Assembly: GCA_945878355.1 (NCBI GenBank)
Contig: CAMCTC010000007.1
Coordinates: 1-64,000 of the forward strand
Length of the DNA: 64,000 nucleotides
Source of the DNA: Bordetella parapertussis
GTDB taxonomy: Bacteria; Pseudomonadota; Gammaproteobacteria; Burkholderiales; Burkholderiaceae_C
Reading direction: 5' to 3'
Shown: positions 11,746 to 64,000 of the stretch, in pieces
Layout of the letters: each line of letters opens with the position of its first letter
Position numbering within the stretch: the first letter of the stretch is position 1
Notes under the pieces: model-generated
Told to the model about the DNA's origin: nothing
Seen by the model: the letters and a program-made list of their open reading frames with translations, nothing else
The model's database searches: none
Made by a program: the position numbers and the translations under genes

Positions 11746-11763
11746 AAAACGGGACTAGGCAAT

Positions 11764-12006
11764 ATGACAAGCGCAACCATCACGACCAAGGGTCAGATCA
11801 CCATCCCCGCCGAAGTACGCAACGCGCTGTCAGTCGGCAAAGGTGATCGCGTGGATTTCGTTCAGATCGAAGATGGGCAGTTCCTGTTCATGGCCGTGAA
11901 CCGGTCTGTCACTGAGCTGAAAGGCATGTTCGGCAAGCCTGAAAAGATCGCTTCCATCGAGGACATGAATCGCGCCATCGCGGCGCGTGGAGCTTCTGCA
12001 CGATGA
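11764..12006 (+). CDS. AbrB/SpoVT-family antitoxin (VapB-like)
   Basis: This is an 80-residue protein starting MTSATITTKGQITIPAEVR, the textbook swapped-hairpin AbrB DNA-binding domain, followed by a C-terminal segment (FGKPEKIASIEDMNRAIAA) that would bind and neutralise the toxin. The ATG at 11764 is preceded by an AGG-containing ribosome-binding site; the frame extends to 11707, but that part is promoter. It overlaps the toxin start by four bases (ATGA), the usual antitoxin-first coupling. Base composition is lower in GC than the neighbours, in keeping with an acquired module. Confidence 0.9.
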   Translation: MTSATITTKGQITIPAEVRNALSVGKGDRVDFVQIEDGQFLFMAVNRSVTELKGMFGKPEKIASIEDMNRAIAARGASAR

Positions 12007-12398: not shown

Positions 12399-12518
12399 AA
12401 GGGTTGTATTGGCGCCGAGACAGTAATGTCGAACACGCGCTTGATCAGTCGGACCCAGCTGATCCGGCCCGGCCGTCGACCTGAGGCTCGCTGGCCACCG
12501 ACGTTATCGGCGAAGCGA

Positions 12519-12664
12519 GCGGCCGACGGTCACGTACCAAGTAGCTGTAGATCACCGGCACCACCACCAGCGTGAGCAAGGTGCTGGTGATCACGCCACC
12601 GATGATGGCCCGGCCCATCGGCGCCTGCATCTCGCCGCCCTCGTCCAGCGCGACCGCCAGGGGC
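12519..12664 (-). pseudogene. Second, truncated copy of the RND permease 3' end (copy B)
   Basis: This stretch matches the intact pump gene end at about 13780-13925, with roughly eight differences over about 146 bases by eye. On the minus strand it encodes [19 protein letters not shown] and then the last helix up to SYLVRDRRP, after which it has its own unrelated tail. The match stops abruptly on the right at about 12664. Within the 343-base gap from 12399 to 12741 nothing else is recognisable. It separates the VapBC-like and HicAB-like modules. Confidence 0.85.
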
Positions 12665-37038: not shown

Positions 37039-38226
37039 TCAGCTGCCGGAGACCAGTTCGGCGATGCGACCCACGTCGTCGCCAGTCATCCGGCTGTGGA
37101 TGGGCAGGCACAGAATCTGGTCAGCGATGCGATGCGCCTGTACCAAGGCCTGCGGTCGAGCCGAGGGCAGATGCCGATACGCGGGCATCTGAGAGATCAG
37201 CGGCCAGAAGTAGCGCCTCGCGCCAACACCTTGTTCGCGCAAACAGTGCATCAATGCGTCGCGGCTGGTACGGTGATGCGGCTCGACCAGGATCGGGAAA
37301 TAAGCATGGTTGGCCTGAACGTCGGCCGAGCATGGCAGGCAGCGGATGCCTTCGATACCGGCCAGTGCGAGTCGGTAGGTTCGGTCGACGGCAGATCGGC
37401 GCGAGATCACGGCGTCCAGGCTTCGGAGTTGCAACAGGCCGAGCGCGGCGCTGAACTCGTTCATCTTGCCGTTGAGGCCGGGTTCGCCGAAGGTCGATTC
37501 GTCGACGATGCCGTGATTCTTCAGACGATCCAGTCGCTGCTTGAGCAGCGGATCGCGGCAGACGATCGCACCGCCCTCAAAGGTCTGGAAGACCTTGGTC
37601 GCGTGAAAGCTGACCACCGACAGGTCGCCATGCGCCAACAGGCTGCCGCCCGCTTGGCGAACGCCAAAGGCATGGGCTGCGTCGTAGACCAAGGGCAGGC
37701 TATGGCGTTGCGCCAAGTCGGCGAACGCAGCCGTGTCACAAGGCGTGCCAAAGCAATGCACCGGCAACAGCGAAACAGTGTCTGGCGTGATCAGCGCCTC
37801 GGCGTGGACCGGGCACAGGTTGAGCGACACCGGATCGATGTCGGCAAACACGGGTGTGAAGCCTGCCCAGTCGATCGCATTGGCTGTTGCAACGAATGAA
37901 AAAGGCGTCGTGATGATCTCGCCGCGCCGGCCAAGGGTTCGCAACGCAGCCATCAACGCTGTGCTGGCGTTGTTGTACAGGCTGAGTTGGTCGACGCCCA
38001 GATAGCCGCGCAGCGAGGCCTCGAAGGCCAGGTGCTGCGGTCCGTTGTTGCTGAGATGGCCGCCGGCCCAGATCTGCTGCAGCAGCGGCAACAATTCGGC
38101 CAGCGGCGGCAGTTCGGGATCGCCGAGCCGGATGCCGGCGCCGGGCGCCATCAGGTTGAGGTCAGCAGGCAGCACAGTCTCGGACAGAAGGTTCAATGGG
38201 ACGTCAGACGCAGCGGCATTCACCAA
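37039..38226 (-). CDS. DegT/DnrJ/EryC1/StrS-family sugar aminotransferase
   Basis: This is a 395-residue PLP enzyme of the VioA/PglE/StrS type, which aminates nucleotide-linked keto-sugars. Motifs include WAGGHLSNNGPQHLAFEASL, TTPFSFVATANAIDWAGFTP, YDAAHAFGV and the PLP lysine in SFHATKVFQTFEGGAIV, followed by LKNHGIVDES and GKMNEFSAALGLLQL. The open frame begins with a TTG at 38226; an ATG at 38151 (MAPGAGIRLGDPELP) may be the true start, since family proteins usually begin about there. It lies 70 bases downstream of giant protein 1 on the same strand. With the acetyltransferase at 48269-48934 it would make a 4-acetamido sugar; no dehydratase is in the window, so the keto-sugar must come from elsewhere. 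Confidence 0.9.
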   Translation of the reverse strand: MVNAAASDVPLNLLSETVLPADLNLMAPGAGIRLGDPELPPLAELLPLLQQIWAGGHLSNNGPQHLAFEASLRGYLGVDQLSLYNNASTALMAALRTLGRRGEIITTPFSFVATANAIDWAGFTPVFADIDPVSLNLCPVHAEALITPDTVSLLPVHCFGTPCDTAAFADLAQRHSLPLVYDAAHAFGVRQAGGSLLAHGDLSVVSFHATKVFQTFEGGAIVCRDPLLKQRLDRLKNHGIVDESTFGEPGLNGKMNEFSAALGLLQLRSLDAVISRRSAVDRTYRLALAGIEGIRCLPCSADVQANHAYFPILVEPHHRTSRDALMHCLREQGVGARRYFWPLISQMPAYRHLPSARPQALVQAHRIADQILCLPIHSRMTGDDVGRIAELVSGS

Positions 38227-38296
38227 CGCTTCAGCACAAGCTTACCCGGTTCGGTCGCTCGTGCGCCGGATGGCTCGCGGCCGACGGCCATGCGCC

Positions 38297-41200
38297 TCAA
38301 ATCGCCAGACTCTCCTCCCAGTAATCAAACCCACCGCTGCCAACCCGCTGCAAGCCCGAAATCATCGGTTGCATCGACTTGGCGCCCAGCAGGTAGGCGC
38401 CGGTCAGTCGACCTGTCGGACCCGCAGATTGGCTAGACAACAACTCGTTGTCGATCGATGACAGCCCTGGCAGCGTCAACGCCAGGTCCAGCCCGGCTCC
38501 TGCATGGTCGAGGTACTCGTCGGCCTGGCTGCGCAGCGACGAGATACCCATCGACGGGGCCGAGCCCAGCCCACCGGCCTTGGGCGTCAGTGCGCTGAGC
38601 CAGGCCGCCAGATCGGCCGAATTGACCGTGCTGGCCTGCAACACTGCGGGCGCAGCAGTCCCGCGCGGGGTCAGTCCGGTAGTCACCACCAACTGCTGGC
38701 GAACCGTCGCGTCATCGACCAGCGTGAACATCGAACTGCCGTTGGCACCGCCGTCGCGCAACACGATGCCCCGCGCAGCATCGACATTGACCCTCGCCGC
38801 GTCGACCTCGACCACCGCAGACTGCGAGCCGGCCTGGTAGAGCGGCCCGTTGCCGCGCATCACGACCTCGGCCGCACGCACGTTGACAGCGTTATCGGCA
38901 TCGGCATCGCGGATCACACCAGCCGAGCTGCTGAGACTGACCGTTCCCGAAACCGTTGCCGAACGCACATCGAGCGTGGCCACGGCGAGGTCCGCCCTGG
39001 CCTGCAAGCTGATGTTGGCACCTCCCGTGGTCAGCGAAGATCCAGCCGCCATGTCGATACCCCCCGACGCGTCGATCGTCAGGCTGTGAGCGACAGGCAG
39101 CACCAGACTCTGGCCGGAGACCGCGATATCGCGGCCGAACACCGACAGCGAACCCGCGACCACATGCGACAGAGTCGCGCTGTTGAGTGTCACCGGGCCG
39201 GCGTTGGCCGCAGCATGACCATCGGCCGCCACCGTGCCGATCATCACCTGCGCAAAGCCCTGCAGCTTGTCCAGCAACTCCGGGCTCAGGTTCAGCGCGC
39301 CCGCCGCATTGCTCGCGCCGACCGAAATCGCACCGCCCTGGGTCGCAGTCGTCAAGCTGGCGTTGGCAGCGCCAGACCCTTGCACCAGGCCCAGCAACTG
39401 CAGCGCGTTGGCCGAGATCACCAGGTCGCCATCCTGACCCAAAGTCACCCCGTGCAACACCACCTGCGACGCGCCCACGATGTGCAGCGTCCCGCCGTCG
39501 AGCAGCACCAGCGCGTCGAAGCTGACCTTGCCGCTGGCCTGGACGTACAGCTCACCCGCCACATGCACCGACTGCTGGAAGCTGACGTTGACCGCGTCCT
39601 CGATGTGCAAGCTGCTCAGCGCCGCGCTGGCGCCGATCGCACCGTCGAACTCCACGTTGCCGCCATTGCCGTCGATCACCAACGCATCCACAGCCAGCGC
39701 CGTGCCCGTCTGCGCATTGACCGCTCGGCGCAACACGATGTCGCCGCCGGCAGCGCCTTTCTGGTTCGCCACGATGCGCAGCGTGCCGTCGATCTTGAGC
39801 GCGTCGTCGACATTCACCCCGGCGTCCACCAGCAAGCGGGCGTTGGTGGCGTGGGTCGTGCTGCCCGAACCCAGGATCGTCAACGAGGCCGCACTGAATT
39901 CGCCTTGCAAGACAATCTCGCTACCCGCACCACGGGCGTCGAGCAGCACCGGGTCGGCAAAGCGCACTGGCTGCTCGTTGGCCACGATGAAGATCCCCTG
40001 GTCGGGCGCCAGGCCACTGCCAAAGACGATGGTCTTGAAACCCGGCATCAGCTTGGCCAGTTCGCTCTGCCCGAGGAACATCGAATCAGGGTAGACCGTC
40101 GGCAGAGACTCGTCGCCGATCGCAATGTCACGCGTCGGGTCGAAGGGCCGGAAACTCAGCGTCGCGCCCACACTGCTGACCGGCGCGCTGATGTTGATCG
40201 TGTTGCCGACCAGGTTCAAGTCCTTGCCCTGGGCGTCCAGAGGCTGCGTGATGTCCGTGCCGCCGGTCTCCGACGACAGTCCGGTCTGGCCCTGGGTGTA
40301 GACCTTGTCGATCTTGATGTCACCCAACGCATGCACCGTGACCTGCCCACTGCCTGACGCAATGCCAGCGCCCCCGCCGGCCGAGACAATCGAACTGCTG
40401 GCACCGCCCGCATCGAGCGTGACCGCGCCGCTCCCGTCAGCACGCACCGCCAGTCCATCGCCGTTGCCGCCATCGGTCAGCGTGATGCTGCCGTTGATGG
40501 TACGCAGCACGATGGCGCCGTTGTTGCCGGTCGCCAGATCGGATTGCGGCGCACTCTTGAACCATGCGCTGCTGCCGTCGGCGTTCAAGCCCTTCACGCT
40601 CACCGTGACCGCGCCCACTGTCACCGAGTCCAACTCAGCCAGGTACAGGCCCGTCGCGCCGGATCCGCCGCTGTAGGCGCTCAACAAGTCCACCGCGGTG
40701 CGCAGGAACTGGTGTGCCGTACCGATGGACCCACCGGCTTCCAGCCTGAGCGTGTTCGCGCCGACGTTGAGCTCGCCGCCGGCCAGGCTCAAGATCGAGC
40801 CCGCGTCGGCCACCAGGCTGACCTCTCGGGCGGTCACCAGACCCAGCGTCAGGTCGGTCGCTGCACTCAGCCGCAGGCTGCTGCCCAAGGCGCCGACCTT
40901 GGCACCGCCGGCCATCGTCAGCGCGCCGCCATGCGCATCGATCGAAATCGTGCCGGGCGCAGCCGTCTTGAGATCGGCAGCAGCGCCGAGAACCACGGCA
41001 TCGGCGGCCCGGATCATCAAGTCGCCCGAGCCCGATGTCATCGAGGTCTGCACGCTGACCGAACCTGATCCACCCAAGCCTGCCTCAAGCGAGACCTTGC
41101 CGCCGCCCTGCGCGGCGACAACAACCGCAGAGCTGCCAAGCGCACCCTCAGACAGGACCAGCGAACCTCCAGCACGCAACACGATGCTGCCACCGGCCAA

Positions 41201-44200
41201 GGTGTGCACGCCAGACAGCAGCGAATCGCCCTGGGTCGACGACTGGGCCGTACCGTCGGGCTTGACGCGATTGACCAGCAGCACTGCCGTCTGGCCCACC
41301 TCCAGCGCCGTCGCATCACTGAGGTGCAAGCCGCCCGAATCGGTCGTCGCGCTGAGCGACTGCACTTCGGTGTTGATGAAATCTTGACTGCTGCCTATGC
41401 CGTTCCCAGCGCCCAACGCGCTCAACTGCAGCTGGTTTGCATAGACATCGACGATGCCGACGGAGGCCGCGTCCGCATGACCCAGGATCGACCCGGCACG
41501 GCTGCCCAAGCTCACCGACCCCCAACTGCCCTGCGCCGCAGCCAGGCGCGCATCGACCAGGCCCAGCTTGATGTCGCCCACCGCCGCGAAGCGCATGTTG
41601 CCGCCCAGGCTGGCGGTGCTCGTGCCCTCACCCATCGTGATCACCGCGCCGGCCTGTACGTCGATGGTCTTGCTCGCCGCAGCGATGTTGGCGTTTTGCA
41701 GCAGACTGCGGCCCGCGTCCAGACTGATGCTGCCGCCACTGCTCGTCAGGTTCGCGGCCAGCAAGATGTCACCCTCGGCACCACCTGCGGCGAGCAGCAA
41801 GTTGCCCGCAGCACTTACCGCTGCGGTGGCCAAGCTGTTGATCGCGCCGGCAGCGGTCACCAGGACCAGGTTGCCGTCGGACAACAAGCCTGACGGCAAA
41901 GCGTCCGGACTCAAGTCCACCGCAGCCAATCCGTCTGCGCCGACCCGGTTCACTGCCACCGGCACGGTCTGGCCCAGCGTCAGCGCCGTCGACTCCATCA
42001 AGTACAGCCCACCCGATCCCGCTGCGCCATTGACACGAGAAGCTTCCGTCTCGAGGGCATTGTTGGGCTCGCCGACGCTGCCGGCCGCTGCGCTGAAACG
42101 AAGCTCGGCGGCGTAGAAATCGACCCGGCCCACCACGGTCTCGCCAGCGTTGTCCAGGATAGAACCCGCAAGGCTGAACACGCCCAAGCTTCCCCAGGTG
42201 GCCTGGTCTGTGATGGTCCCGTTGACTCGGTCTGCCACAGAGCGCGCGTCCAGTACGCCAACCGTGATATCGGCTGCCGCAGCAGCCATCAAATTGCCGC
42301 CCGCGGTGACGACCACCGCACCGTCGGCCATCGTGATCGCACGAGCAGCCAACAGATCAATGGTTTTGCCCGCCGAGCCAGCCATGATGTCGGCGTTCTG
42401 CAGCAGGTCGCGGCCCGCGCTCAGGCTGATGTTGCCGCCGCTGCTCGTCAGCGCCGCACCCAGCGTGATGTCGCTGCTCGCGCCGCCCACCTTGACCAAT
42501 GCGTTACCCGCCACCGTCACCGCGCCAGTGGACAAGGTCGTGATCGATCCAGCCAGGCTCACCAGCGCCAAATTGCCGCCCGACACCAGGTCGGACTGCG
42601 CCGCGTCGCCGGTCGCCGCGCTGCCTGCATCCGATGCCACCCGGTTCACCGCCACCGCAGCGGTTTGACCCAGCGTCAGCGCGGTCGACTCGGTCAGGAA
42701 CAGGCCTCCCGCACCCGCTGCGCCGCTCAGACGAGCGGCTTCAAGTTCCAGCGCATTGCTGCCAACGCCGATGCCCATGGCCGACGCGCTCAGCCGCAAT
42801 TCGTTTGCGTACAGGTCGACCGTGTTCGCCACCGCCTCGAGCGCGTTGTCGAGCATCGAGCCAGCACTGCTGAGCACGCTCACCGCGCCCCAATTGCCTT
42901 GGTCCACCACCCCAGCACCACTTCGACCCGCCGCCGTGCGCGCATCCACCAGACCCAGCGTGATGTCGCCCACCGCCTCCAGGCGGATCTTGCCGCCATC
43001 GCTTTGCACCACCGCGCCATCCGCCATCACGATCGCCGCGCCTGCCGCCAGGTCTATCGTCGCCACCACGCCTGTCGTGCTGACATCGCTTTCCGCCGCC
43101 AGCGTCAAGCTGCCGCCAGCCAGCAGGCTCAGCGACCCGCCACCGGCTTGCAGCGCAGCGTTCAGCGTCAGCTCACCCGCTGTGGCCTGCAGGCGCACAG
43201 GGCCGCTGCCGACGGTCATGCCCGCCGATGCTGCCGTGCCGGCGTTGACCACCACCGCGCCAGTTGCGCTGACCAGCACCACCGCACCTGCGCCGGTGGC
43301 TATAAGGTCCTCCTGCGCCGCTTGGCTCGTCGCTGCCGACGTGCCATTGCTCGCCACCCGCGGCACATTGACCGTCAGCGTGTCGACCGTCACGCCATCG
43401 CTCTCGGCGATGAACAGCCCGCCCGCGCCCGCGTTGGCAGTCAAGGTCGCCACCGTCGTCTCGACCGCGTTGCCACCCACCCCGATCGCGTTGCCAGCCC
43501 GCAAGATCAATCCCGCCGCCGTGACGTCGACCTCGTTATCGCCCGCGGCGTCACCATCGCTGATATTGCCCGCCGTTCCCGCCACAACGATCACCTTGCC
43601 CAGTCCTGCGGCCAAGGTCTCTAGCGTCAGGTTGCCCGACGCGCGCAACGAGATGTTGCCGTCGGTCGTGGCGATGCCGCTCACCGCGTCGGCCATCACG
43701 ATGCCGCCACCGGCCACCAGGTCGACGCTTGTTGCGCCCAGCGCCGTCAACACATCGGCGTTGAGCTCGATGTCACTGGCTGCGTCCAAGCTGACGTGAC
43801 CTCGCGCAGCAACTGCACCGGCCGCAGCGACACCGGTGGTGCGCAGGTCGGCGTTGATCACCAACCTGGCGCCCGCGCCCGCAGCCTTCAACAACACATT
43901 GCCCGCAGCCTGGACGCCGAGCGTGCCGGCATCGGCATCGCCCTCGTTGACCGTCAGCGTGCCTGCCAGCGTCTGCAGCACCAGGTTGCCTGACGACACC
44001 GCATCCGACAGCATGGGGTCGGAAGTGCTGACCAGTTGCGCGCCCAAGGTCCTCAAACCCAGCACACGCTGGACGCTGATGGCGTCGAGTTGGTCGACGA
44101 TCAGCGCGTCGGTTTCGGTGATGAACAGTCCGCCAGTTCCCGTGCCGGCCACCACCGCCGCCAACCTGGCGACCGTCGTCTGCAGCGGCGCCGTGCCGGT

Positions 44201-47200
44201 ACCTGCACCGTCACCATTGGCCACACCCGTGGTCACGATGCGCAGCGCGACAGCGCTGATGTCGATGTCGGTGCTGCCCGAATCGGTCAACTTGCTCGCA
44301 CTCAGGCTGACGCTGGCGCCGCTGATGATTGCCCCTATCGTCATCGCACCGGCGGCCACATAGCGGATGTTGCCCGGCGCATTGGCTGTCGCACCGTCTG
44401 CCATCGCCACTGCACCGCCGGCCTGCACGTCAATCGTGCCACCGCTGGTCAGCAGCTTGCCGGCCGACGCCTGGGCGATGTCGCCTTGCGCGAACAGCGA
44501 GATCCAGCCACTGCCGGCATCGACCGGTGCGTTCAGGCTGATCGCACCTGCGGCGGTGATAGGCGTCGCGGTGGCGTTCCAAGCCGCCGACAGCAGGATC
44601 GAGCCCATGCCAGTGGCCTGGACCGCTTGGTCGACCACCATCGCGCCGGCGCCGGTCCTGCCGGTGCTCAGGATGATCGACCCACCCGACAGAGCGCTCA
44701 AGCCGCTGAGCGCGGTGGTGCCGAAGCGGCTGTCGGCGGCCAAACCGGCCGCCGACACGCGCTTGACCGTCAACTCGGCCACGGTGCCAACCGTCACACC
44801 GTCGGCTTCGGCGATGAAGATGCCACCGGCATCGGACCTGGCGCTCAGCGTCGCCACCTTGGTCGTGATCGACGCAGCGGCCGGGCCGATGCCCGCGCCC
44901 GCCTCCATCCTCAAGCTGCCAGCGCTGACATTGACCAGGCCGCCGGCGTCGGTGATTGCGCTGGCGCGAATGCTGACGGCGCCGGTGCCGGCGCTGAGTT
45001 GTCCCAAGGCCACGTTGCCGGCCGTCTCGATGCGCTGCGCACTGTTGTTGGTGAGCAAGCTGGCGGTGCTGGCCATGGTCACGCCGGCGAAGCCGGCGCT
45101 GAGGTCCAGCGTCTGTCCCGCCGCGCTCACGGCGACCGCCGAGTTGGCTTGCACCATCAAGGCATTGGCCGCCAGCAGGCTGATGCTGCCGCTGGTCGAA
45201 CCGATGTTGGCGTACACGCCGATCGAACCAGCCGGCGCCTGCAGCAGCAGGTGACCGCTGCCCGATGTCGTCGCGGTCGACGCCACCGGACCACTGACCA
45301 GCAGGTCGCCCGCGGTCACCGTCAGCGCCATCGACCCGGCGCCTGCGGCCGCACCCGCCAGCGTGACTGTGTTGAGGATCAGCGCGCTCTCTTCGATCAG
45401 GTAGAGGCCGCCGCCACTGGTGTCGCTGGCCGTCAGTGACACGATGCGCGTGCGCAGCGCACCGCTGGTACCCGTGGCCGCACCGGTGCCTATGCCGGTC
45501 GAGGCGCCCAAGCTGGTGCTGCCACCGATCAGGTTGGGCGTGTCGCCTGTCAGCCAGTCGATGATCGCGCCGCCGCTCGTCGTCGCGCCAAGACTGCCGC
45601 CGACCTCGACCTGGCTGAGCTTGATGTCGCCACCCGCCACCAGGCTGGCGCTGCCGGCCTGCAGCGAGACGATGTGCTTGCCATCGGTCATCGTGATCGC
45701 GCCACCGGCAATCAGCGACACCGTGCCGCCGCTGGTGCCCGACGAAATGCCCGAGCCCGAGCTGATGTGGCCGCCCAGCGTGATCGCGCCGCTGGTCGCG
45801 GTCAGCGACACCGGGCTTGCAGAACTGTCCAGCAAGTCGATATTGGCCGCGGTGGTGATCGCGCGGCCAGCGCTCAGCGTCAGCGGGCCCGCGTTGCTGA
45901 GCCCCTGGTTGATCAACAAGTCCTTGCCTGTGCCACCGGCCGTCAGCGTGACCGCGCCCGAGCCTGCGGTCGTCACGCCAAAGCCAGGGCTGGCGACCGA
46001 CAACACGGTGACACTGCCACCAGCGGTGACCAAGGACAGGGATTCGCTGCCGGTCGACCCCTGGGCCAGACGAAACACATCGACATCGCCGGTGATCACG
46101 CTGCTGGCAAACAGCGCGGAGCCACGCGCCACATTGACACCGACGAGCAGACTGCCAGAAGTCAGGTTGGTCACGTCGACCGTGTTGGTCTCGACCGACC
46201 CGAGCGCAACGCCAGTCACCGCTCTGACGGTCAGCTTCAACGCTCGGGTCGCTTCGGCCGCGAGTCCGTCAACGTTGTCGTCGACCTCGCGCACCGAGCC
46301 GGTGGCGGAGTACAGCGTCAGCTCCTGCGCCTCGGTCTCGTTGCGGATTTCGATGTTGCTGTAGGCATCAAGCCTCAACATTGCCGCCGATGCGGTACTC
46401 AAGGTGCTGGTGGGGTCAACAGCGTCGACCACGGTGATAGAACCACCGTACAGCGTCGCGCTGTCCAGGAACAAAGGGTTGGCGCTGCGGCTCCCGAGTT
46501 GCAAGGCGCCGGCCGTCGATGCGGCGTGACCGCTGCTGTTGACACCGATGACGAAAGCGCTGAAACCATCGGCGAAAGCACTCATTTCGGCCGCATCGAC
46601 ATCGAGCACGCCGGTCGTCGCCGAGCCAGGCACCAAGCCAATCGCGATGGGCAGGGTCGGCGTGGTCGGCAGCAGCGTGACAAGGCCCTGGCCCTGCATC
46701 AGCGACTCGGTGATCTGCAACTCGATTTCGTCGGCCTGAAGCCAGATCTCGCCCTTGCTGCTGTCGCTGGCCACACCCGTCAGCGTCACGCTGCTGGTCG
46801 CCGGAAATGACACCAGCGTGGCCCCCCGAACGATCAAATCCCCACCGGCACTGATCTTCACCGCCTTCAAAAACGTGACCGTGCCGCTGGCATTGATGAC
46901 GAGGTTGCCATCGATGGTCACTTCACCGCCGAAGGTCACATCGTGCACTGTGGCGGGCGTGCCGACGGCCTCTGCGCCGATCACCAGATCAGCGCCGCCA
47001 CCGGTCAGCGTGACGTCCTGGTTGAACACCACATTGCCGCTGGCATTGACGATGCGCAGGTCGCCCGACATGGCCACCGACTGGACGAACAACACCGATG
47101 CGGCAGTCGTGACCGTGATCCCGTTGAGCAAGTCCGTGGTACCGGCCTCGCCCTCGGTCTGGCCTGCCGCGACCCTGCCGTTGAAGCTCAGGTTGCCGCC

Positions 47201-48115: not shown

Positions 48116-48268
48116 AGGGTGATTCCCAATCAGGGGTGGACTGCCAAACGACCAAAACCGCCCGACAATGAATCGTTCTGACAGGGTGCCAGAAACAGAC
48201 CACGAAAAACTGACAGCTTCTTGCCAGTAACGATTCGATCGTTTTTGACCTGTTGCCGCAGCAAAGGC

Positions 48269-48934
48269 TCAGCGCCTGACGACGCGCCCCGGGTTGCCGA
48301 TCAGCGTGCTGTCGGCAGGCAAAGACTTCAAGCAGGCCGCACCGGGCGCGAGCACGCAGCGCGACCCGATCGACAGCCCTGGCGCCGTCACGCTGTTGGC
48401 GCCGAGCAGCACATCCTCGCCGACGGTGACATGACCACCCACCCAGGCGCCAGGCAGCACGATGCTGTTGTTGCCCAGCCGACTGTCGTGGCCGATCACC
48501 GCGTTGTGCATCAGCAGCACGTCGCGGCCAATCGTCGTCATCGCGCCGACATTGACATGGGTGGCGATCACGCAGCCAGGCGCTAGCGTGGCGGCCTTCG
48601 ACACTGTCGCCGAAGCCGACACCAACGCGCTGGCGGGCAGCAAGCCGGCGGCGGCTGCCGCCAACTGCATCGCGCGCCGGCGCGGCAGATCCAGAAAACC
48701 CGACACATAGTGGGTTGCCTGGGCACAGGCTGCCGCCCAGTCGGTGATCACCGGCAGGCCGAAAAAAGAGCCAGCGGCAAACTGCGGGTCGACGTAGACA
48801 GCGCAAAACAGCTCGGCGCCTGCGAGCTCGACGATGTCGCGCGCCAGCGCACCGGCGCCGATCAGCAGCCGCCGCTCGGCCAGCGGCACCGGCCACAACA
48901 GCGACTTGGGATGGAAGAGCGCGGTCTCAGCCAT
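48269..48934 (-). CDS. NeuD/PglD-family acetyltransferase (left-handed beta-helix)
   Basis: This is a 221-residue sugar N/O-acetyltransferase. The N-terminal Rossmann-like substrate domain (RRLLIGAGALARDIVELAG) is followed by hexapeptide repeats (NVGAMTTIGRDVLLMHNAVI, VGGHVTVGEDVLLGANSV). The likely catalytic His is in NAVIGHDSRLGNNSIV. PglD-type members acetylate UDP-4-amino sugars produced by DegT-type aminotransferases; NeuD members acetylate sialic acid. The frame is open to 49519, but that part overlaps the glycosyltransferase; the ATG at 48934 lies two bases before that gene's stop codon region, the usual coupled arrangement. Third gene of the giant-protein locus. Confidence 0.88.
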   Translation of the reverse strand: MAETALFHPKSLLWPVPLAERRLLIGAGALARDIVELAGAELFCAVYVDPQFAAGSFFGLPVITDWAAACAQATHYVSGFLDLPRRRAMQLAAAAAGLLPASALVSASATVSKAATLAPGCVIATHVNVGAMTTIGRDVLLMHNAVIGHDSRLGNNSIVLPGAWVGGHVTVGEDVLLGANSVTAPGLSIGSRCVLAPGAACLKSLPADSTLIGNPGRVVRR

Positions 48935-48936
48935 GG

Positions 48937-50676: not shown

Positions 50677-50757
50677 GAGATTGGCAAAACCCTGATGAAA
50701 TCAAGCACAAAGATAACAAAGTCGGCCAGCGCGATATCGGCCTGGCGAGCGAGGCCA

Positions 50758-56700: not shown

Positions 56701-59700
56701 CAGGCGCACATTACCGACCGCGTCGATCAGGCTGGTCTTGCTCATCATGATCGACGCGCTCGCGCCGGCTTCGATATCGACCGAGCCCAGCGTCCTCAGT
56801 TCGGCGGCTGCGCCCAGCGCGAGCTGGCCGCTGGCCAGCAGCGTCAGGTGACCGGTGCTGCTGCGAACGACAGCATTCAAGCCCAGGCTGCCCGCCGTGC
56901 TTTGCAGCAGCAGGTTGCCGCCACCTTGCGCACTCACCGCCCGGTCCACCGTCAGCGCAGCGCTGGCCCTCAACACCACCGAACCGTCGCCGCCCAAGCT
57001 GGCAACACCGACCTGCGCCGCACTCACCGGTCCTGCTTGCGCAACGCCACTGGCATCGACCCGGTTCACCGCCAGCGCGGCGCTGCTGCCCACCGTCACC
57101 GTGTTGGCCTCGCTGACGAACACGCCACCCAGGGCCGCACTCGCACTGATCAAGTCGACATCGGTCTCGATATGGTTGACGCCTGTGCCGATCGAGCTGC
57201 CCGCATCGAGCCTCAGCTCACGCGCATAGACATCGACCGCGCTGTCTGCAACCGCCGCCGGGTTGTCGACGATGGCCGCGCCGGCCAGCAAGCTGACCGA
57301 GCCCCAGAGGCCGGCGCTGCTGCGAGCATCGATCTGACCCAGCGTCAGCGTCGTGCGGGCGTCGTAGTGGATGTTGCCGCCTGCCGAGCGCGTGATCGCG
57401 CCATCGGCCATCGTGATCGATCCGGTCTGCGCCTGCAGGTCTATCGTCCCCGCGCCTGCGGTCACGATGCTGCCTGTTGCCGACTGCGTGATGCTGCTAC
57501 TGGCCAGCAGCGTGACCGAGCCGGTGTCCGCATCCAGCGATGCGTTCAGCGCCAGACTGCCCGCCTCCACCTCCACGCGCAGTGAACCACCGCCCACCGC
57601 TGCGATCGCCGTTGCCGCACTGGCCGTGCCGCCGTTGACCGTCAGGTCGCCTGCCAGCACCGTCAGCACCAGCGCGCCACCAGCGTTGGTGCGCAAGTCT
57701 TCGCCACCGGCCGTCAACGTGGTCGCCGTCCCGTCGACACCCACGCGTTGCAGCGTCGCGCTCACCGCGTCGACCGTCAAAGCGCCGGCCGAGCTGACGA
57801 AAGCACCTCCGGCGCTCAGCGCCAAGGTGTTCACCGCCAGGTCGAGCTTGTCGCTGGCGCTGCCGATCGCGCCGCCCGCCTGCATAAACAGTTTGCCGGC
57901 AAGCACATCGATGCTGGCATCAGCGTCGACGATGCCGCCCGATGCCACCAGCACCACGGCGCCGGTCGGGTTGCCGATCAAGCGGCCCAATGACAGGTCA
58001 CCGCCCAAGGCCTGGATTCGGATGTCACGGCCCGCAGTGATCAAGGTCTCGTCAGCGCCGATGCTCATCGTCACCGCAGTGCCCGCTTGCAGGTCCACGG
58101 TGCCAGCGGTCGTGATGTCGCCGGCCGACGCCATGACCAGACTCGCGCCGGCGATCACGGTCACATGGCCTGCCGAGGCCCCGGTGCTCAGCGCCTGGTT
58201 CACCAGCACCGACCCGGCCGTGCTCTGCAGCAGCAGGTTGGCGCCGGCCGAGACCGACTGGTCCACCGTCAAGCTGCCGCTGGCCATCAACACCACCGCA
58301 GCGCCTTGCGCGACCACGCCGGACTGCGGGCCTTCGGACGGGCCACTGAGCGCCATGCCGTTGGCATCCACCCGGTTCACGCCGATCGCATCGCTGCGGC
58401 CCACCGTCAACTGATTGGTATCGCTGATGAAGACACCACCGCCAGAAGCGCTGGCGCTGACAACGCCGACATCGGTCTCGAGGTGGTTGGCGCCGCTGCC
58501 GATCGCGGTGCCGGCAGCGAGCCTGAGCTGGTTCGCGTACACGTCCACGATGCTGTCGTCCACTGCCACCGTGTTGTCGACAATGGCCGCGCCGGCCACC
58601 AGGCTGACCGAGCCCCAGTTGCCGCTGCTGCTGCGGGCGTCGATCTGGCCCAGCGTCAGCGTCGTGTGCGCGTCGTAGCGGATGTTGCCGCCAACCGTCT
58701 GCGCCACCGCGCCGTCGGCCATCGTGATCGACCCGGTCAGTGCCTGCACGTCTAGCGTTCCGGTGCCCGCAGTCGCGACGTCGCCAGTCGCGGACTGGGT
58801 GATGTTGGCCTTGGCCAGCAAACTCACCGAACCGGTGCCCGCGTCGAGCGAAGAGTTCAACGCCAGGCTGCCCGCCTGAACGTCGAGCAGCACCGAGCCG
58901 CTGCCGCCAGCAACCATGCCCGCGTTGGGGCTCGCCGTGCCGCCGTTGACCGTCAGGTCGCCGGTCAGCACCGTCAGCACCAGCGGTCCGCCAGCAGTCG
59001 AGCGCAGGTCTTCGCCACCCGCCGTCACCGGCGTCGCCACGCCGTCAACGCCCACACGTTGAAGCGTCGCGACCACCGCGTCCACCGCCAGCCCATGGGC
59101 CGAGGTGATGAAGCCACCGCCCGCGCCGGCGCTCAGTGCCAGCGTGTCCACCGAGACCTCGACCTTGTCGCTGCTGCTGCCGACTGCGCCGCCGGCCTGC
59201 AAGTACAGCTTGCCGGCGCTGACATCGCTGCCAGCGTCACCGTCGATGATGTTGCCCGATGCGGTCAACACCACGTTGCCGGTCGCGCCGCTGACCAACT
59301 GCCCCAGCGCCAAGTCGCCGCCCAGCGCTTGAACCCGGATGTCGCGACCCGCATTGATCACTGCCTCGTCGGTGCCCAGGGTCATCGTCACCGCTGCGCC
59401 GGCTTGCAGGTCCACCGTCCCGCCGGTCGTGATGTCGCCCGCAGCGGCCAGCCTCAGGTCCGAAGCTGCGACCAGCGTCACGTTGCCACTGGCGGGCGTT
59501 GCCGCCGTGCTCAAGGCCTGGTTCAGCTGGATGCTGCCAAATGTGGACTGCAGCAACAGGTTGCCGCTGCCGCTGGCCTTGACAGCCAGATCGACCGTCA
59601 GCGTGCCACCGGCCACCAGCACCACCGAGCCATTGCCCGCCTGAGACACCACGCCCACCTGCGCCACGTCGCTCGGGCCCGTCGTCGCCAGGCCACCCTG

Positions 59701-62700
59701 GTCGTTGACCCGGTTCACACCGATGGCCATCGTCAGCCCCGCCGACAAGGCATCGGCCTCGCTGACAAAGATGCCGCCGGCAGCAGCACTGAGCGCAGCG
59801 CTGAGCGTCACCACCGCAGTCTCGATGTGGTTGCTGCCTTCGCCGATGGTGGTGACAGCGCTGAGTTTGAGCTGGTTGGCGAACACGTCGACCGTGCTGT
59901 CGCCGACTGCGGTCGGGTTATCCAGAATCGCCGCGCCGGCGACCAGGCTGACCGAGCCCCAATTCCACGGGATGTCTTGGACCGCACCAGTGCCGTCGCG
60001 CAACCTGGCGTCGATCTGGCCCAGCGTCAGGTTTGTGCTCGCTTCGTAGCGGATATTGCCGCCCGAGGTCTGCGACACCGCGCCGTCGGCCATCGTGACC
60101 GAACCCGTCACCGCTTTCACGTCGATCGTGCTGACCGCACCGGCCACCGTGAGGTCGCCGGCTGCCGACTGGTTGATGCTTCCCTGGGCCAGCAAAGTCA
60201 CCGATCCACCCGCCGCGTTGATGCCGGCGTTGACGGCGATGCTGCCCGCCGCAGTGCTCGACACCCGGCTGGCGTTGAGCAGCACGTTGCCGCTGCCGCT
60301 CGCGGTGACCGCTTCGCTGACCAGCAGCGCGCCGTCGTGCGTGACGCCGTTGGTCAGCACAATGTTGCCCGTCACCAGCAAGCCAGACTGCAGCGCGTCG
60401 GTGATCACCGAGGCGCTCACCACGCCGCCCGCCGTGACGGTCACAGTGCCGTCGGCCCTGACGCGGTTGACCGTCACCGGCAAACCGGCAATCTCCAGGC
60501 CGTTGATTTCACTGAGGAACAAGTCACCGGTCACCGGCGCGCTGAGCTTGCCGATGCTGGTCTCGATCACGTTGGCCGCGCTGCCCACGCCCGATGCCGC
60601 CTGCAAGCGCAAGCTGTTGGCCTTGACATTGACCGAGACCACCGACCCTGGCCCGTCGTTGTTGTCGCTGATCGCACCGCCCGAGACCACGCTGACCGAC
60701 CCGCCCAGCGGGCTGGCGCCGGCGTTCAGATAGCCCAGCGCGATATTGCCGACGGCGGCCACACGCAGCGCCGAGTTGCTGGTGGCGATGCTGCCACCGC
60801 CGCCCATGGTCACCGTGGTGCCCGCTTGAGCGTCCACCGTCTGGCCAGCGGCCAGGGTCTCGATCTTGGTCGTGGTCGCCGTGCCGATGGCCAGAGCGCC
60901 TTGGGCTGACAAGCTGATGCTGCCAGTGCTCGACGACACATTCGATGCCAAGGACATATTGCCCACGGCAGTCGACAGCAGGATATGGCCACCCGCGGTG
61001 TTGCCGGCGCCAATCGCCAACAAGCCTGCCCCCTTGGTGACCGTGACCGTGCTGCCCGAAACCGTCGCATCGAAGCTGTCGCTGGCGTCGATCGCTGTCT
61101 TGAGCGCAGCGGCGATGCTGGCCATCGTGGCGCCTGTCCCGGCCTTGACGCTGAACGCAGTACCCCCCAGATCGATCGTGTAAGTGCTGCCAAACATCGC
61201 CGTCAGCGTGCCGAGGTTGACCGTCCGGGCATCGTCGACCAGCGGTGTCGCGGCCACCGCGTTGATCGCCGAAGCGGCCAGCGCAGCGCCGGTGGCGTTG
61301 CTCTTCACCACGCCGGCCACCGTCAGGTCACCCGTGAGCAAGCTGAGCACCAGCGAGCCTGCGGTGGCCGTGTTGCCCGACAGCGTGACGTTGTTCAGCG
61401 TCAGGCTGTCGGCCTCGGTGATGAACATGCCGCCGCTGCTGCTGTTGTCACCCGACAGGCTGGCCAGCTCGGTGCGCAGCTTGCCGCCGGTCGTCGCGCC
61501 CACCGCGTCGGCAGCGCCTATGCCAGTGGCAGCGTGCAGGTTGGCTGACAAGCCACGCAGGTTCGCGCCGTCGCCGGTCAGGCCGTCGATGATCCCGCCA
61601 GCGCTGCTGGTGACCGTGATCGTGGTCTGCACATCGACCAGGCCCAGCGTGATGTCGCCTGCTGCGCTCAGCGTGGCCTGGCCGCCCGAGCCCAGCGAGC
61701 TGATGCTCACGCCAACGGCTGCCATCGTGATCGCGTCGGCCGAGACCAGCGTGACCGCGCCGCGCGCAGCGCTGATCGAGCGGTCGACCAGGATGTCCTC
61801 GCCGCTGCCTTGCGCCTCGAGCCTGATCGTGCCGCCGCCGAGCACGTTGACGCCCTGGAATCCGGCGGCCACCGTGATCGACCCGCTCTTGGCCAACAGG
61901 CTGATGCTTTCAGTGGCGTTGACATTGGCCAGCGACTGGTCCAGCCTGCGCACCTGCACGTCACCGGTGATCACGCTGCTGGAGAACAGGCCCGTGCTGC
62001 GCGCCGCGTTGACCACCAGCGTGATGTCGCCGCTGGTGGTGTTGCGCACATCGATCGCGCCAACTTCCAAGGAACCCAAGGCGATGCCGGTGGCCGCCTG
62101 CACGGTCAGCAGCGGCGTGCGGATCGCCTCGCCCAGCAGCGGGTCCATCGTGTCGTCGGCCTGGCTGACGCGGCCAGCGGCCGAGTACAGCGTCACGGCC
62201 TGGGCCTCGACCTCGTTGCGGACCTCGATGTTGTTGACCGCGTCCAGCGTCAGGGTTTCGCCCGTGGACAAGCGCAGCGTCGTGTTGACGTTGCCAGCGT
62301 CGACCACCGTGATCGATCCGCCGTAGATCGAGGCGTCGTCACGGAACAACTCGTCGAGCGCTGCCTTGGCGCTGTCGGCAACCAGCGGTGTGCCGTTGCG
62401 TCCGCCTACCAGCACCGCGCCAGCACCCGCCAGCGCGTGACCGTCGCCGCCCACGCGGCCGATGGCGATGCGGCTGAAGCCGTCGGCCAATGTCCCCAGC
62501 TCAGCCGTTTCAAGGTTCAGAACACCCTCGGTGGCAGCCCCGGTGGGCGAACCCACGGCGATGTCCAGCGTCGGCGTGGTCGGCAACAGCGTCACCAGGC
62601 CCAGGCCGCTGAGCATCGAAGCCCCCATTCGCAGGTCGATTTCATCGGCCTGCAACCAGATGTCGCCGGTGGTCGCCGCGACCGGCGTCAGCGTCAAGGC

Positions 62701-64000
62701 ACTGCCTGTGACGAAGTAGATCTGGCTCGCGCCACGGACGATGAGGTTGCCGCCGTTGCTGATCGTCACGCCTTTGTTGAAGATCACGCGACCGGTGGCG
62801 TTGATGACCAGATTGCCATCGACGGTGACCGCTTCGTCGAACACCACGTCGTGCGCCGTCGCTGCAGTGCCGGCCGCCTCGGCGCCGATCACCAGGTCAC
62901 CACCACCGCCCGACAGTGCAATCGAGCCGTGGAACTCGATGTTGCCGCTGGCGTTGATGCGCAGATCGCCTGCGATCGCGATCGACTTGACGAAATCGAC
63001 GTCCACTGCGGCAGTGATCGTGATGCCGTTGATCAAGTCGGTGACGCCGATGTCCGGGGTTTCCGCCTGGCCCGCGGCCACCATGCCGTTGAACCGGATG
63101 TTGCCGCCCGCGCTGAGCGTCAGCACATCGAGCCCTGCCGTCGGCACGGGCGTGCTCGGATCACCGCCGACGAAGTTCATCTCGCCGGCCGGCAGGTCGG
63201 CATCGGGCGTGCCCATCGTGATGTCACCAACCGCCGTGATGCTGCGCTGGCCGCTGACGCGGGCCGAGTCGTTGAGCATGTAGTTGCCGACGCTCGCGAC
63301 CTGGTTGGCCATGATCGTGGTGGTGTGGCCCGAGCCATAGATCGCGATGTCGGGTGCCAACACATCGGTGCCGACATAGATCTCGCCACCCGCGCCATTG
63401 GCGTACAGCACCAGATTGTCCCTGACCTCGATGCCGGTGTTGCCGACCGTGACCAGGTAAATCGGGTTAGCGCCACCCTCCGACCCGACGACGATCTGGC
63501 GGAACCCGTCCTGGATCTGAGCGATATCGGGCTTCTCGATCCACAGCGCCTCTTTCTGGCTGTAGGCGTTGGTATTGTTCTTCTGCACCAGCACCATGTC
63601 ACCGACCACGATCACCCGTGTCGGGTCGATCGGCGCGATGCTCAGCGTCGCACCGGCGCTGCGCAGCGTGCCCAGCAGCGAGAAGTCGTCGGCAGCGATC
63701 ACGATGTCCTGTCCGCTGGCGTCCACCGAACCCGACACAGTCTGTGTGCCGGTCAGGTTGAGCGCATTGGTCTGGCCGCCTCGCGACCCGCTGCCCGCGG
63801 GCGCGCCGACCGTCACCGCATCGGTCGAGATGATCGAAACGTTCTCGCGCTCGCTGCTGCCGACCAACAACTTGCTGGCGTCGACGAAGATAGACAGCGG
63901 GCTGAACATGAATCCCGCCACCGCATGGCCGACCTCGTGCATCGCAGTCAGCGTCAAGGTGCCGGCGCTGGTCTGCACAAAAGCGCCTCCCGCAGTTCGC
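50758..64000 (-). CDS. Giant repetitive surface protein (giant 2), N-terminus beyond the window
   Basis: This is an open frame of more than 4,400 codons, still open at the right edge (frame continues through base 64000), so the start and any LEPR motif lie outside. From N to C it has: an early segment with a zinc-protease-like HEVGH at 63925-63939; a block homologous to the N-part of giant 1 (GGANPIYLVTVGNTG, YGSGHTTTIMANQ, MLNDSARVSGQRSITAVGD); a ~1.3 kb higher-order repeat block (about 57-60.5 kb); an alternating 669/675-base repeat block (about 53.1-56.4 kb); the ~1.37 kb segment shared with giant 1; and the C-terminal tail YLLGAKALQPCSSGLQPVGA followed by FDYWEESLVI. Ser/Thr/Ala/Gly-rich with almost no Cys. 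Probably a surface adhesin or matrix protein. It heads the minus-strand cluster of glycosylation genes. Confidence 0.87.
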   Translation of the reverse strand, partial: RTAGGAFVQTSAGTLTLTAMHEVGHAVAGFMFSPLSIFVDASKLLVGSSERENVSIISTDAVTVGAPAGSGSRGGQTNALNLTGTQTVSGSVDASGQDIVIAADDFSLLGTLRSAGATLSIAPIDPTRVIVVGDMVLVQKNNTNAYSQKEALWIEKPDIAQIQDGFRQIVVGSEGGANPIYLVTVGNTGIEVRDNLVLYANGAGGEIYVGTDVLAPDIAIYGSGHTTTIMANQVASVGNYMLNDSARVSGQRSITAVGDITMGTPDADLPAGEMNFVGGDPSTPVPTAGLDVLTLSAGGNIRFNGMVAAGQAETPDIGVTDLINGITITAAVDVDFVKSIAIAGDLRINASGNIEFHGSIALSGGGGDLVIGAEAAGTAATAHDVVFDEAVTVDGNLVINATGRVIFNKGVTISNGGNLIVRGASQIYFVTGSALTLTPVAATTGDIWLQADEIDLRMGASMLSGLGLVTLLPTTPTLDIAVGSPTGAATEGVLNLETAELGTLADGFSRIAIGRVGGDGHALAGAGAVLVGGRNGTPLVADSAKAALDELFRDDASIYGGSITVVDAGNVNTTLRLSTGETLTLDAVNNIEVRNEVEAQAVTLYSAAGRVSQADDTMDPLLGEAIRTPLLTVQAATGIALGSLEVGAIDVRNTTSGDITLVVNAARSTGLFSSSVITGDVQVRRLDQSLANVNATESISLLAKSGSITVAAGFQGVNVLGGGTIRLEAQGSGEDILVDRSISAARGAVTLVSADAITMAAVGVSISSLGSGGQATLSAAGDITLGLVDVQTTITVTSSAGGIIDGLTGDGANLRGLSANLHAATGIGAADAVGATTGGKLRTELASLSGDNSSSGGMFITEADSLTLNNVTLSGNTATAGSLVLSLLTGDLTVAGVVKSNATGAALAASAINAVAATPLVDDARTVNLGTLTAMFGSTYTIDLGGTAFSVKAGTGATMASIAAALKTAIDASDSFDATVSGSTVTVTKGAGLLAIGAGNTAGGHILLSTAVGNMSLASNVSSSTGSISLSAQGALAIGTATTTKIETLAAGQTVDAQAGTTVTMGGGGSIATSNSALRVAAVGNIALGYLNAGASPLGGSVSVVSGGAISDNNDGPGSVVSVNVKANSLRLQAASGVGSAANVIETSIGKLSAPVTGDLFLSEINGLEIAGLPVTVNRVRADGTVTVTAGGVVSASVITDALQSGLLVTGNIVLTNGVTHDGALLVSEAVTASGSGNVLLNASRVSSTAAGSIAVNAGINAAGGSVTLLAQGSINQSAAGDLTVAGAVSTIDVKAVTGSVTMADGAVSQTSGGNIRYEASTNLTLGQIDARLRDGTGAVQDIPWNWGSVSLVAGAAILDNPTAVGDSTVDVFANQLKLSAVTTIGEGSNHIETAVVTLSAALSAAAGGIFVSEADALSAGLTMAIGVNRVNDQGGLATTGPSDVAQVGVVSQAGNGSVVLVAGGTLTVDLAVKASGSGNLLLQSTFGSIQLNQALSTAATPASGNVTLVAASDLRLAAAGDITTGGTVDLQAGAAVTMTLGTDEAVINAGRDIRVQALGGDLALGQLVSGATGNVVLTASGNIIDGDAGSDVSAGKLYLQAGGAVGSSSDKVEVSVDTLALSAGAGGGFITSAHGLAVDAVVATLQRVGVDGVATPVTAGGEDLRSTAGGPLVLTVLTGDLTVNGGTASPNAGMVAGGSGSVLLDVQAGSLALNSSLDAGTGSVSLLAKANITQSATGDVATAGTGTLDVQALTGSITMADGAVAQTVGGNIRYDAHTTLTLGQIDARSSSGNWGSVSLVAGAAIVDNTVAVDDSIVDVYANQLRLAAGTAIGSGANHLETDVGVVSASASGGGVFISDTNQLTVGRSDAIGVNRVDANGMALSGPSEGPQSGVVAQGAAVVLMASGSLTVDQSVSAGANLLLQSTAGSVLVNQALSTGASAGHVTVIAGASLVMASAGDITTAGTVDLQAGTAVTMSIGADETLITAGRDIRIQALGGDLSLGRLIGNPTGAVVLVASGGIVDADASIDVLAGKLFMQAGGAIGSASDKLDLAVNTLALSAGGAFVSSAGALTVDAVSATLQRVGVDGTATTLTAGGEDLRTNAGGALVLTVLAGDLTVNGGTASAATAIAAVGGGSLRVEVEAGSLALNASLDADTGSVTLLASSSITQSATGSIVTAGAGTIDLQAQTGSITMADGAITRSAGGNIHYDARTTLTLGQIDARSSAGLWGSVSLLAGAAIVDNPAAVADSAVDVYARELRLDAGSSIGTGVNHIETDVDLISASAALGGVFVSEANTVTVGSSAALAVNRVDASGVAQAGPVSAAQVGVASLGGDGSVVLRASAALTVDRAVSAQGGGNLLLQSTAGSLGLNAVVRSSTGHLTLLASGQLALGAAAELRTLGSVDIEAGASASIMMSKTSLIDAVGNVRLLAGQDVVLGVVKTPGRVEVSATAGAILGRGEEDSEVVAAGLSLVAGNSVGALGSGATALKTTVSVVSARAGSGGINLLEADALTVGDVQVTVQRVGADASTSELIGANRSDLLTTGNGSVVLRTTRGAITLDDGTAGVAGTAIGADGAGKVLVQTLGVGNDIVANADIVSGNGALSLLSGGAIRLNSAADLRTGAMGTIDVDAAAGSLTLAGNSLVTSGSGNILLHAAWDLTLGRVSSGGSVEVNATAGSIFESGDTLVDLVAGSLKLVAGSGIGSLGLGAKAIDVTAAVLSASAGALGINLLGSGALTVGTVQVTAQRVGADALGVDLIGAAQSDLVATDSGSIVLRTSNGSITLNDGNSDGSAVSVNGTGRVLIESIQAATDVLVNADIVIDSGAVSVLAGRGVVLGAASDVRAGKGATIQIVAGSASIVQADNSLITADGGNIALLAAQSVTLGGVSTAGKVEITATAGSVFDGGDSLVDVVAGSLKLVAGSGVGSLGGGSNSIETTVGTISARAGSGGINLLDSDALTLGDVQVTVQQVSADAATSERAGVTQSDLITTANGGIVLRTTNGNLSLADGAAGEAHVAIRADGTGRVLVQAINAATDVLVNADIVSGGGALSVLAGRSVIFGDQADLRAAATGTVQIVAGVGSITQADRSLIASGSGNISLMAAENVTLGGVSTSGNVEVSATAGSVLDGGDSHVDVQAGGLKLIAGLGIGTLGLGANAIETAVGVLSANAGALGINLLESDALTVGAVQVTVQKVGADAGVSAQIGLSQFDLVTANSGNIVLRTSKGSITLNDGNTDGKAVNANGSGKVLIEAIDAAADILVNADIVVDKAAVSVMAGRSVVFAALADLRAGSGATVDVVAGSGSIVQADNSLITAGGGNIALLAAQDVTLGGVSTAGKVEITATAGSILDGGDSLVDVVAGSLKLVAGSGVGSTGVGANAIETTLATLSAHAGSGGINLLESDALTLGDVQVTVQRVSADASTSERAGTTQSDLITTGNGSIVLRTTNGKLTLADGTAGEAHVAIRADGTGRVLVQTINAATDILVNADIVSGGGALSVLAGRSVIFADQADLRAAATGTVQIVAGMGSITQADRSLIASGSGNISLIAAQSVTLGGVSTSGNVELSATAGSVLDGGDSQVDVVAGGLKLSAALGIGTLGLGANAIETTVGVLSARAGSGGINLLESDALTLGVVQVTVERVDVGGAGISRVGVAQSDLITSGNGNIVLRTVNGSITLTDGGNGDGLAVRADGSGEVSIDVGGASSSVVSTGGGAGIASGSGQITVHALGDIKVDKVYTQGQTGLSSETGGTDIMQPLDAQGKDLNLIGNTININAPVSSVGATLSFRPFDPTRDIAIGDESLPTVYPDSMFLGQSDLVKLMPGFKTIVFGSGLAPDQGIFIVADEQPVRFADPVLLDARGAGSAIVLQGELSAASLTILGSGSTTHATNARLLVDAGVNVDDALKIDGTLRIVANQKGAAGGDIVLRRAVNAQTGTALAVDALVIDGNGGNVEFDGAIGAIAALSSLHIEDALNVSFQQSVHVAGELYVQASGKVSFDDLVLLDGGTLHIVGASQVVLHGVTLGQDGDLVISANALQLLGVVQGSGAANASLTTATQGGAISVGASNAAGALNLSPELLDKLQGFAQVMIGTVAADGHAAVNAGPVTLNSAALSHVVAGSLAVFGGNIELSGSVSTLHQSAFVGLDAAGSITMNAGSGLRAPGVDLTLQARGNVAVTTLDLRASDRSGTVTLSSQSGVISDADLDSSVNIYAGAVVMRGDGPLHQAGSQAAVIEVDAQRVNVDAGHGVVMRDGGADGSSVFNMVDGSTVRQELVVKGPALRETSTPTAIQQMTSNASEFATWLSALQRGAGLLGAAKFSQSVLSAAVPVHGNTADYLDHLGYDAAMTVSGISLSASDMLLPQSYGLADRLAKAYLLGAKALQPCSSGLQPVGADSFDYWEESLVI
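51601..52967 (-). repeat. Segment shared with giant 1 (copy 2)
   Basis: This is the partner of 39134-40500 (offset 12,467). Direct orientation, about 1.37 kb, near-identical by eye; both flanks diverge quickly, which points to recent duplication or gene conversion. Confidence 0.88.
53062..56433 (-). repeat. Alternating higher-order tandem repeat in giant 2
   Basis: A landmark (CACCGTGAC and variants) recurs at 53062, 53737, 54406, 55081, 55750 and 56425. The spacings are 675, 669, 675, 669 and 675 bases. The units alternate between an A type (SADASTSERAGTTQSD, ADGTAGEAHVAIRADG) and a B type (GADAGVSAQIGLSQFD, NDGNTDGKAVNANG), so the true repeat is a 1,344-base AB dimer (448 residues). Confidence 0.88.
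57329..60020 (-). repeat. Second higher-order repeat block in giant 2
   Basis: TCGATCTGRC landmarks (encoding LGQIDAR) lie at 57329, 58640 and 60011, spaced 1,311 and 1,371 bases. Each long unit comprises an ADGAV/LGQIDAR/WGSVSL/DVYANQL module and a TLQRVGVDG/GGEDLR/LTVNGGTA module, about 437-457 residues. The block continues less regularly on both sides. Confidence 0.8.

Follow-up and report, generated by a model that had tools for sequence, protein, structure and literature searches.

Several described systems come close to the locus treated here, a group of five genes in a 64,000-nucleotide stretch of Bordetella parapertussis DNA (contig CAMCTC010000007.1; the whole stretch is called the window below) that encodes two giant proteins with kinship to the LEPR-XLL family and three sugar-handling enzymes. 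In the HMW1/HMW1C system of Haemophilus, a GT41 glycosyltransferase gene adjoins that of a beta-helical adhesin. The viosamine genes of Pseudomonas syringae are vioA, vioB and vioT. The flagellin of this species is reported to carry modified viosamine, a derivative of 4-amino-4,6-dideoxyglucose, on Ser (PMC3958885). Caulobacter FlmG combines tetratricopeptide repeats (TPR) with a glycosyltransferase and acts in the cytoplasm before export, the TPR part being the acceptor-binding arm (PMC7591256). On the side of secretion, Kamneva et al. (2015) reported a locus in which secondary SecA_DEAD proteins are accompanied by GAF-HlyD, M50-HlyD and HlyD/outer-membrane efflux protein (OEP) partners; they saw no ATP-binding cassette (ABC) transporter and called the wider role of this locus "completely unknown" (PMC4452313). 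The words LEPR, SapC and giant occur 0 times in that paper, and no cargo is named (PMC4452313).

The window locus resembles each of these systems in part. As in HMW1/HMW1C, a GT41 gene adjoins a beta-solenoid giant, but the enzyme is of the TPR/SPINDLY type, no two-partner-secretion domain was found in the giants, and sugar-tailoring genes are added. The HMW1C precedent invoked by the original prediction holds for this arrangement and not for the enzyme, which is of the SPINDLY/OGT (O-GlcNAc transferase) type and has many relatives outside its clade at flagellar loci. The TPR-glycosyltransferase make-up is shared with FlmG, and our model proposes a similarly cytoplasmic, TPR-guided action; FlmG, however, uses pseudaminic acid, whereas the window holds no flagellin and the proposed acceptors are the giants. 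GT41-DegT pairs like that of the window occur at betaproteobacterial flagellar loci (L102, L105, L106, L110). With the viosamine system of P. syringae the locus shares a VioA/VioB-like logic, while transferase family and target protein differ. The cassette that accompanies LEPR giants in other genomes likewise has a secondary SecA_DEAD protein with GAF-HlyD, M50-HlyD and HlyD/OEP partners; what differs from the 2015 locus is that LEPR giants are proposed as its cargo and SapC as a part. We read the window locus, with a probability of roughly 55%, as two secreted or surface LEPR-XLL beta-solenoid giants with an accessory three-gene module for protein glycosylation in the cytoplasm, the giants leaving the cell through a SecA-like/HlyD/M50-HlyD/TolC/SapC machine. 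LEPR giants in general are most likely the cargo of the Kamneva SecA_DEAD/HlyD/M50 locus, an assignment that would reach the window by homology only and that is the wider and better-supported result than the sugar module.

As originally predicted, the five genes are collinear on the minus strand, as confirmed by their open reading frames (ORFs) and by Pfam and NCBIfam matches. Giant 2 (50758..64000; at least 4,413 residues visible, the frame being open from 50758 to at least 63999 at the window end) is followed after 81 bases by the TPR-GT41 glycosyltransferase gene (48937..50676, 579 residues), after 2 bases by a gene for a NeuD/VioB-like hexapeptide sugar N-acyltransferase (48269..48934, 221 residues), after 153 bases by giant 1 (38297..48115, 3,272 residues) and after 70 bases by a gene for a DegT-family sugar aminotransferase closest to DesI (37039..38226, 395 residues from a TTG start). 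The nearly gapless packing claimed for the small genes is thus borne out for the 2-base interval, and for the 70-base interval provided that the TTG start of DegT is correct; the true start may be a later ATG. The 153-base interval contains a terminator-like minus-strand hairpin (48209..48228, read 48228-48209) that matches the consensus only. Such sites are no commoner in the window than in shuffled sequence (3 found against a mean of 7.1), so that one transcript and two are indistinguishable.

Giant 1 is a LEPR-XLL protein (NF012209, 30.0 bits with a cut-off of 17, residues 20-39). The N-terminus of giant 2, including any LEPR motif, lies beyond the window, and the LEPR-type label that the original prediction gave to both giants holds for giant 2 through its homology to giant 1 (44% over 2,917 columns). 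The C-terminal DNA of the two is near-identical (38696-40523 and 51163-52990, 88%), and the proteins end in FDYWEESLAI (giant 1) and FDYWEESLVI (giant 2), with the common form FDYWEESL-x-I. Giant 2 consists of beta-solenoid repeats with a period of 448 residues; a repeat model gave no Foldseek match at E<=0.001, and a second structural comparison (VIA-align) found likeness in beta-helix shape only. At E<=0.1, Pfam yielded no match for giant 1 and one sub-threshold DUF2345 match for the visible part of giant 2, and hence no two-partner-secretion domain in either, as had been claimed. In other genomes, two LEPR giants of about 11,500-12,600 and 2,700-2,900 residues (open frame) stand head to tail (G028 C98, G002 C89, G004 C1, G001 C11); in the window, the GT41 and NeuD-like genes stand between the two giants. 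Two LEPR open frames span 16,048 (G022 C14) and 15,822 residues (G016 C41) and are, to our knowledge, among the longest bacterial reading frames.

The tie between LEPR giants and the export cassette is strong as judged by comparative genomics. Contigs of GTDB genomes were scanned with an alignment of eight giants, which gave 62 LEPR loci with flanks of at most 10 kb and often shorter, and whole genomes were searched for 30 of them. The neighbours of the giants by Pfam are SapC, an OEP, HlyD adaptors, an M50-HlyD fusion and a SecA paralogue, forming a cassette of SapC, a TolC-like protein, three HlyD-type proteins (one fused to the M50 protease) and a diverged SecA; the secondary SecA_DEAD, GAF-HlyD, M50-HlyD and OEP genes that define the Kamneva locus occur together at LEPR relatives. 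SecA_DEAD was present in all 30 LEPR genomes, with a second, diverged match in 28 as judged row by row (not G013 and G023; some are fragments), and SapC in 29 of 30. By tblastn, 30 of 36 loci, some of which overlap, hold both the M50-HlyD and the SecA-like gene, one or both being missing in L018, L024, L027, L040, L078 and L117; the full order SapC, OEP, small HlyD, membrane fusion protein (MFP), M50/HlyD, SecA was found in 14 of 36. The HExxH motif of the M50 part is intact in 29 of 29 rows. In a separate sample of 399 genomes, the family of G002, LEPR matches occurred in 56 genomes and M50-HlyD (E<=1e-20) in 94, the latter in 56/56 genomes with LEPR versus 38/343 others (Fisher 2.6e-43, uncorrected for kinship). 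An M50-HlyD gene lay within 20 kb of 49 of the 75 LEPR places (45 of 56 genomes), compared with about 1.4 expected if genomes of 5 Mb are assumed.

Of the 38 genomes with M50-HlyD and no LEPR match, 20 were read. Five of these 20 loci carry a variant N-terminal token on a giant (VEPRILYAAD twice, IEPRLLYSAD, LEERLLYAAD and MEERILHSAD), and in eight (L163-L170) the M50-HlyD genes are more distantly related and come with no SecA match. Giants with variant tokens that stand beside M50-HlyD/SecA genes and are missed by NF012209 (L151, L155, L160, L161, L162) indicate that the LEPR family extends beyond what this model captures. Where an M50-HlyD gene is present, 30 of 59 loci carry a broadened token; elsewhere 5 of 66 do, and these five were known beforehand as LEPR loci or as giant loci of Massilia, Tepidiphilus or Rubrivivax. 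The M50 part of the fusion (L012 2694-4841, L061 5177-7375) best matches NF041824 (164 and 158 bits, under the cut-off of 300), the model of a daptide biosynthesis intramembrane metalloprotease, a possible evolutionary link of M50-HlyD to peptide maturation.

Of the three sugar genes, that for GT41 encodes a protein that has a TPR arm and a GT41 catalytic domain (PF13844, 155 bits with a cut-off of 25, plus TPR families); its best PDB matches are SPINDLY (7y4i, 4.3e-81), a bacterial TPR protein (5djs) and human OGT, and it falls far from the HMW1C-type model (NF049992, 17.1 bits with a cut-off of 1000). The NeuD-like protein has a hexapeptide fold (PF00132, 67 bits). The DegT protein matches PF01041 at 312 bits, and its best PDB chain is 2po3, which we take to be DesI. 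An enzyme pair of the DesI/VioA-like and VioB-like kinds yields an acylated 4-amino-4,6-dideoxyhexose.

The original prediction expected GT41 genes at LEPR loci beyond this genome, and they were found in Azohydromonas australica, next to the cassette, and in two further genomes, next to a giant. A relative of the window GT41 occurs in 2 of the 62 LEPR loci, and relatives of the NeuD-like or DegT gene in 0 of 62. Among the 30 LEPR genomes, PF13844 is present in 17 (36 merged genes), and two such genes lie within 2 kb of a LEPR place compared with 0.08 expected (Poisson 0.003). At genome level in the 399-genome sample, GT41 is weakly commoner with LEPR (17/56) than in the others (63/343; Fisher 0.033, uncorrected for kinship). 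The top match to the window GT41 in that sample is in Azohydromonas australica (G010; 56% over 430 residues), where a single operon comprises DegT, GT41 and NeuD (53, 49 and 58% identity to the window genes) and is divergent from a SapC-OEP-small HlyD-MFP-M50/HlyD-SecA cassette; the LEPR giants of this genome sit on other contigs. In a tree of 70 GT41 cores, made by a quick method with SH-aLRT support only, the window and Azohydromonas enzymes fall in a clade of eight (99), and those of a Massilia metagenome-assembled genome (MAG; L018) and a Tepidiphilus MAG (L024) in a separate one (100). In L018 both ORFs run on the same strand, the GT41 one ending about 100 bases ahead of the LEPR one; in L024 the two are divergent and about 340 bases apart. 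For the proposed tie of sugar genes to giants, the trio is known from two genera, and GT41 by itself from two additional genomes. A Rubrivivax GT41 of equal length (G028, 579 residues) was set aside, being only 33% identical and on a contig without a giant match. A search for further clade members gave five matches among 199 Azohydromonas relatives (40-48%) and five among 392 genomes of the Massilia MAG's family (30-34%); the surroundings of these ten (G032 and G060 included; only 5 kb for L145) showed no LEPR motif or cassette gene. In Massilia glaciei, a carbamoyltransferase gene (L039 7273-9060) lies about 1 kb upstream of the LEPR match and perhaps encodes another modification enzyme.

In the mechanism that we propose, the DegT enzyme would aminate a nucleoside diphosphate (NDP)-4-keto-6-deoxyhexose to a 4-amino-4,6-dideoxyhexose of the viosamine/Qui4N type, and the NeuD/VioB-like enzyme would N-acylate it. 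The TPR-GT41 enzyme would then bind the giants by its TPR arm and place the sugar on Ser/Thr in the cytoplasm. Tagged for export by the LEPR-XLL N-terminus and a W-x-E-x-L-x-hydrophobic C-terminus, the giants would leave through the SecA-like/HlyD/M50-HlyD/TolC/SapC machine, encoded elsewhere in the genome, perhaps upstream of giant 2 past the window. A broader proposal, which we hold tentatively and at somewhat under even odds, is that an ABC-free machine has LEPR-XLL proteins as its dedicated cargo and exports them as single chains, the longest of about 16,000 residues. As we read it, this machine comprises a diverged SecA paralogue, the M50 intramembrane protease-HlyD fusion, two further HlyD adaptors, a TolC-like channel and SapC. 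Its signals may be two tokens, LEPLEPRxLLSAD at the N-terminus (VEPRILYAAD- and LEERLLYAAD-like variants included) and W-x-E-x-L-x-L at the C-terminus; the M50 part may handle the N-terminal one, and cytoplasmic GT41 O-glycosylation may have been recruited at least twice.

A number of results weigh against this picture. The window, which ends within giant 2, holds no export-cassette gene, and no Ser/Thr enrichment was found in the giants when it was sought. The NeuD-like protein scores 119.5 bits with its best NCBIfam model (TIGR03570, NeuD/PglB/VioB), under the cut-off of 160.8, and in the PDB LpxA chains rank first, ahead of PglD, perosamine N-acetyltransferase and VioB, all weak; DegT likewise stays under the equivalog cut-off of its best model, DesI (TIGR04427, 254.3 bits with a cut-off of 650). 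The Walker A motif of the SecA-like protein is present in 17 of 28 rows and degenerate in 11, including those of Azohydromonas and Rubrivivax, and its role as a motor is doubtful in that branch for this reason. At 10 kb, the Poisson value for proximity of PF13844 genes to LEPR places rises to 0.058. The Azohydromonas contig stops about 410 bases beyond NeuD, before any giant beside the trio; contigs C8 and C114 were compared in search of one, but their ends share no overlap. In the 399 genomes, none of the 75 LEPR places had a close GT41 relative (E<=1e-70) at 30 kb or less, in a scan that scored three candidates per genome and whose threshold would miss the L018/L024 lineage; together with the 2 of 62 loci, this rules out GT41-LEPR linkage as a general rule. 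The dedicated glycosylation system of the original prediction is partly supported: the sugar module is a rare accessory, and not the core, of LEPR systems. On the SecA-like genes it may be added that Walker A is not recognisable in L010, L012, L017, L026, L099, L112, L119 and L121, where the cassette is intact.

The adverse results on the sugar side bear on an alternative in which the GT41, NeuD and DegT genes belong to a sugar set of the flagellin or polysaccharide type, one that came between the giants by chance and serves another molecule. This is unlikely, though it is the most serious contender: 20 related GT41 loci hold flagellin in 7 and DegT in 11, one of them with a weak NeuD, relatives of the trio lie with MotA, FlhB and FlhA (L105) or with flagellin (L102), and most LEPR giants have no GT41 nearby. 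Yet a second genus has the trio beside the LEPR-type cassette, and the 20 kb read there gave no flagellin match; a distant GT41 lineage adjoins LEPR giants in two genomes, and none of the window ORFs scanned is flagellar. The module is similar to the sets that glycosylate flagellin; its recruitment to LEPR systems seems to have been a rare event, and that of the second GT41 lineage an independent one. That the enzyme is a SPINDLY/OGT-like regulator of cytosolic proteins, its place beside the giants being meaningless, is very improbable despite its PDB matches to SPINDLY and OGTs; the gene lies two bases from that of a sugar acyltransferase, its clade mate is in an operon with DegT and NeuD, and a user of UDP-N-acetylglucosamine (UDP-GlcNAc) or GDP-fucose would not need such partners.

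The remaining doubt concerns the exit. The giants might leave by a type I or two-partner system of the ordinary kind whose genes lie elsewhere, the SecA/HlyD/M50 cassette being a neighbour with another job; they have an acidic-hydrophobic C-terminus like that of type I signals. For one LEPR-XLL giant, from Vibrio, RTX and serralysin domains are reported at the C-terminus (PMC10868602), which is a feature of type I secretion. We regard this route as improbable, given the presence of the M50-HlyD gene in every LEPR genome of the sample, the Pfam matches of the giants, none of them a two-partner-secretion domain, and the count of 0 of 32 cassette loci with an ORF that has both Walker A and the ABC signature (a regular-expression proxy with no positive control).

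Nineteen further ORFs of the window were scanned. They belong to metabolism or housekeeping, encode one RND pump and its HlyD-type adaptor, or have no match, and none is SecA-like, SapC, M50-HlyD or flagellar. Tandem glycine riboswitch aptamers (6722-6961, plus strand; RF00504, 54.9 and 50.3 bits) precede gcvT-gcvH-gcvP. Two genes for pyridoxal phosphate (PLP) enzymes of Cys/Met metabolism (726-2027, minus strand; 20086-21396, plus strand) are 65% identical in DNA over 898 columns, and a direct repeat of 150 bases (12515-12664 and 13776-13925) is 93% identical.

In the literature searched by titles and the beginnings of abstracts, which leaves most subscription journals and preprints outside its coverage, nothing linked LEPR giants to the SecA/HlyD/M50 locus, and such a link may be in print; the accessible portions of the LEPR-XLL literature gave no export route or sugar module for these proteins. 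If the present reading is correct, GT41 protein glycosylation would reach beyond flagellins and two-partner adhesins to LEPR giants, the sugar being predicted and a target being at hand. The export locus described in 2015 would gain a cargo, and this orphan machine for secretion would form one testable system with an N-terminal motif so far unexplained.
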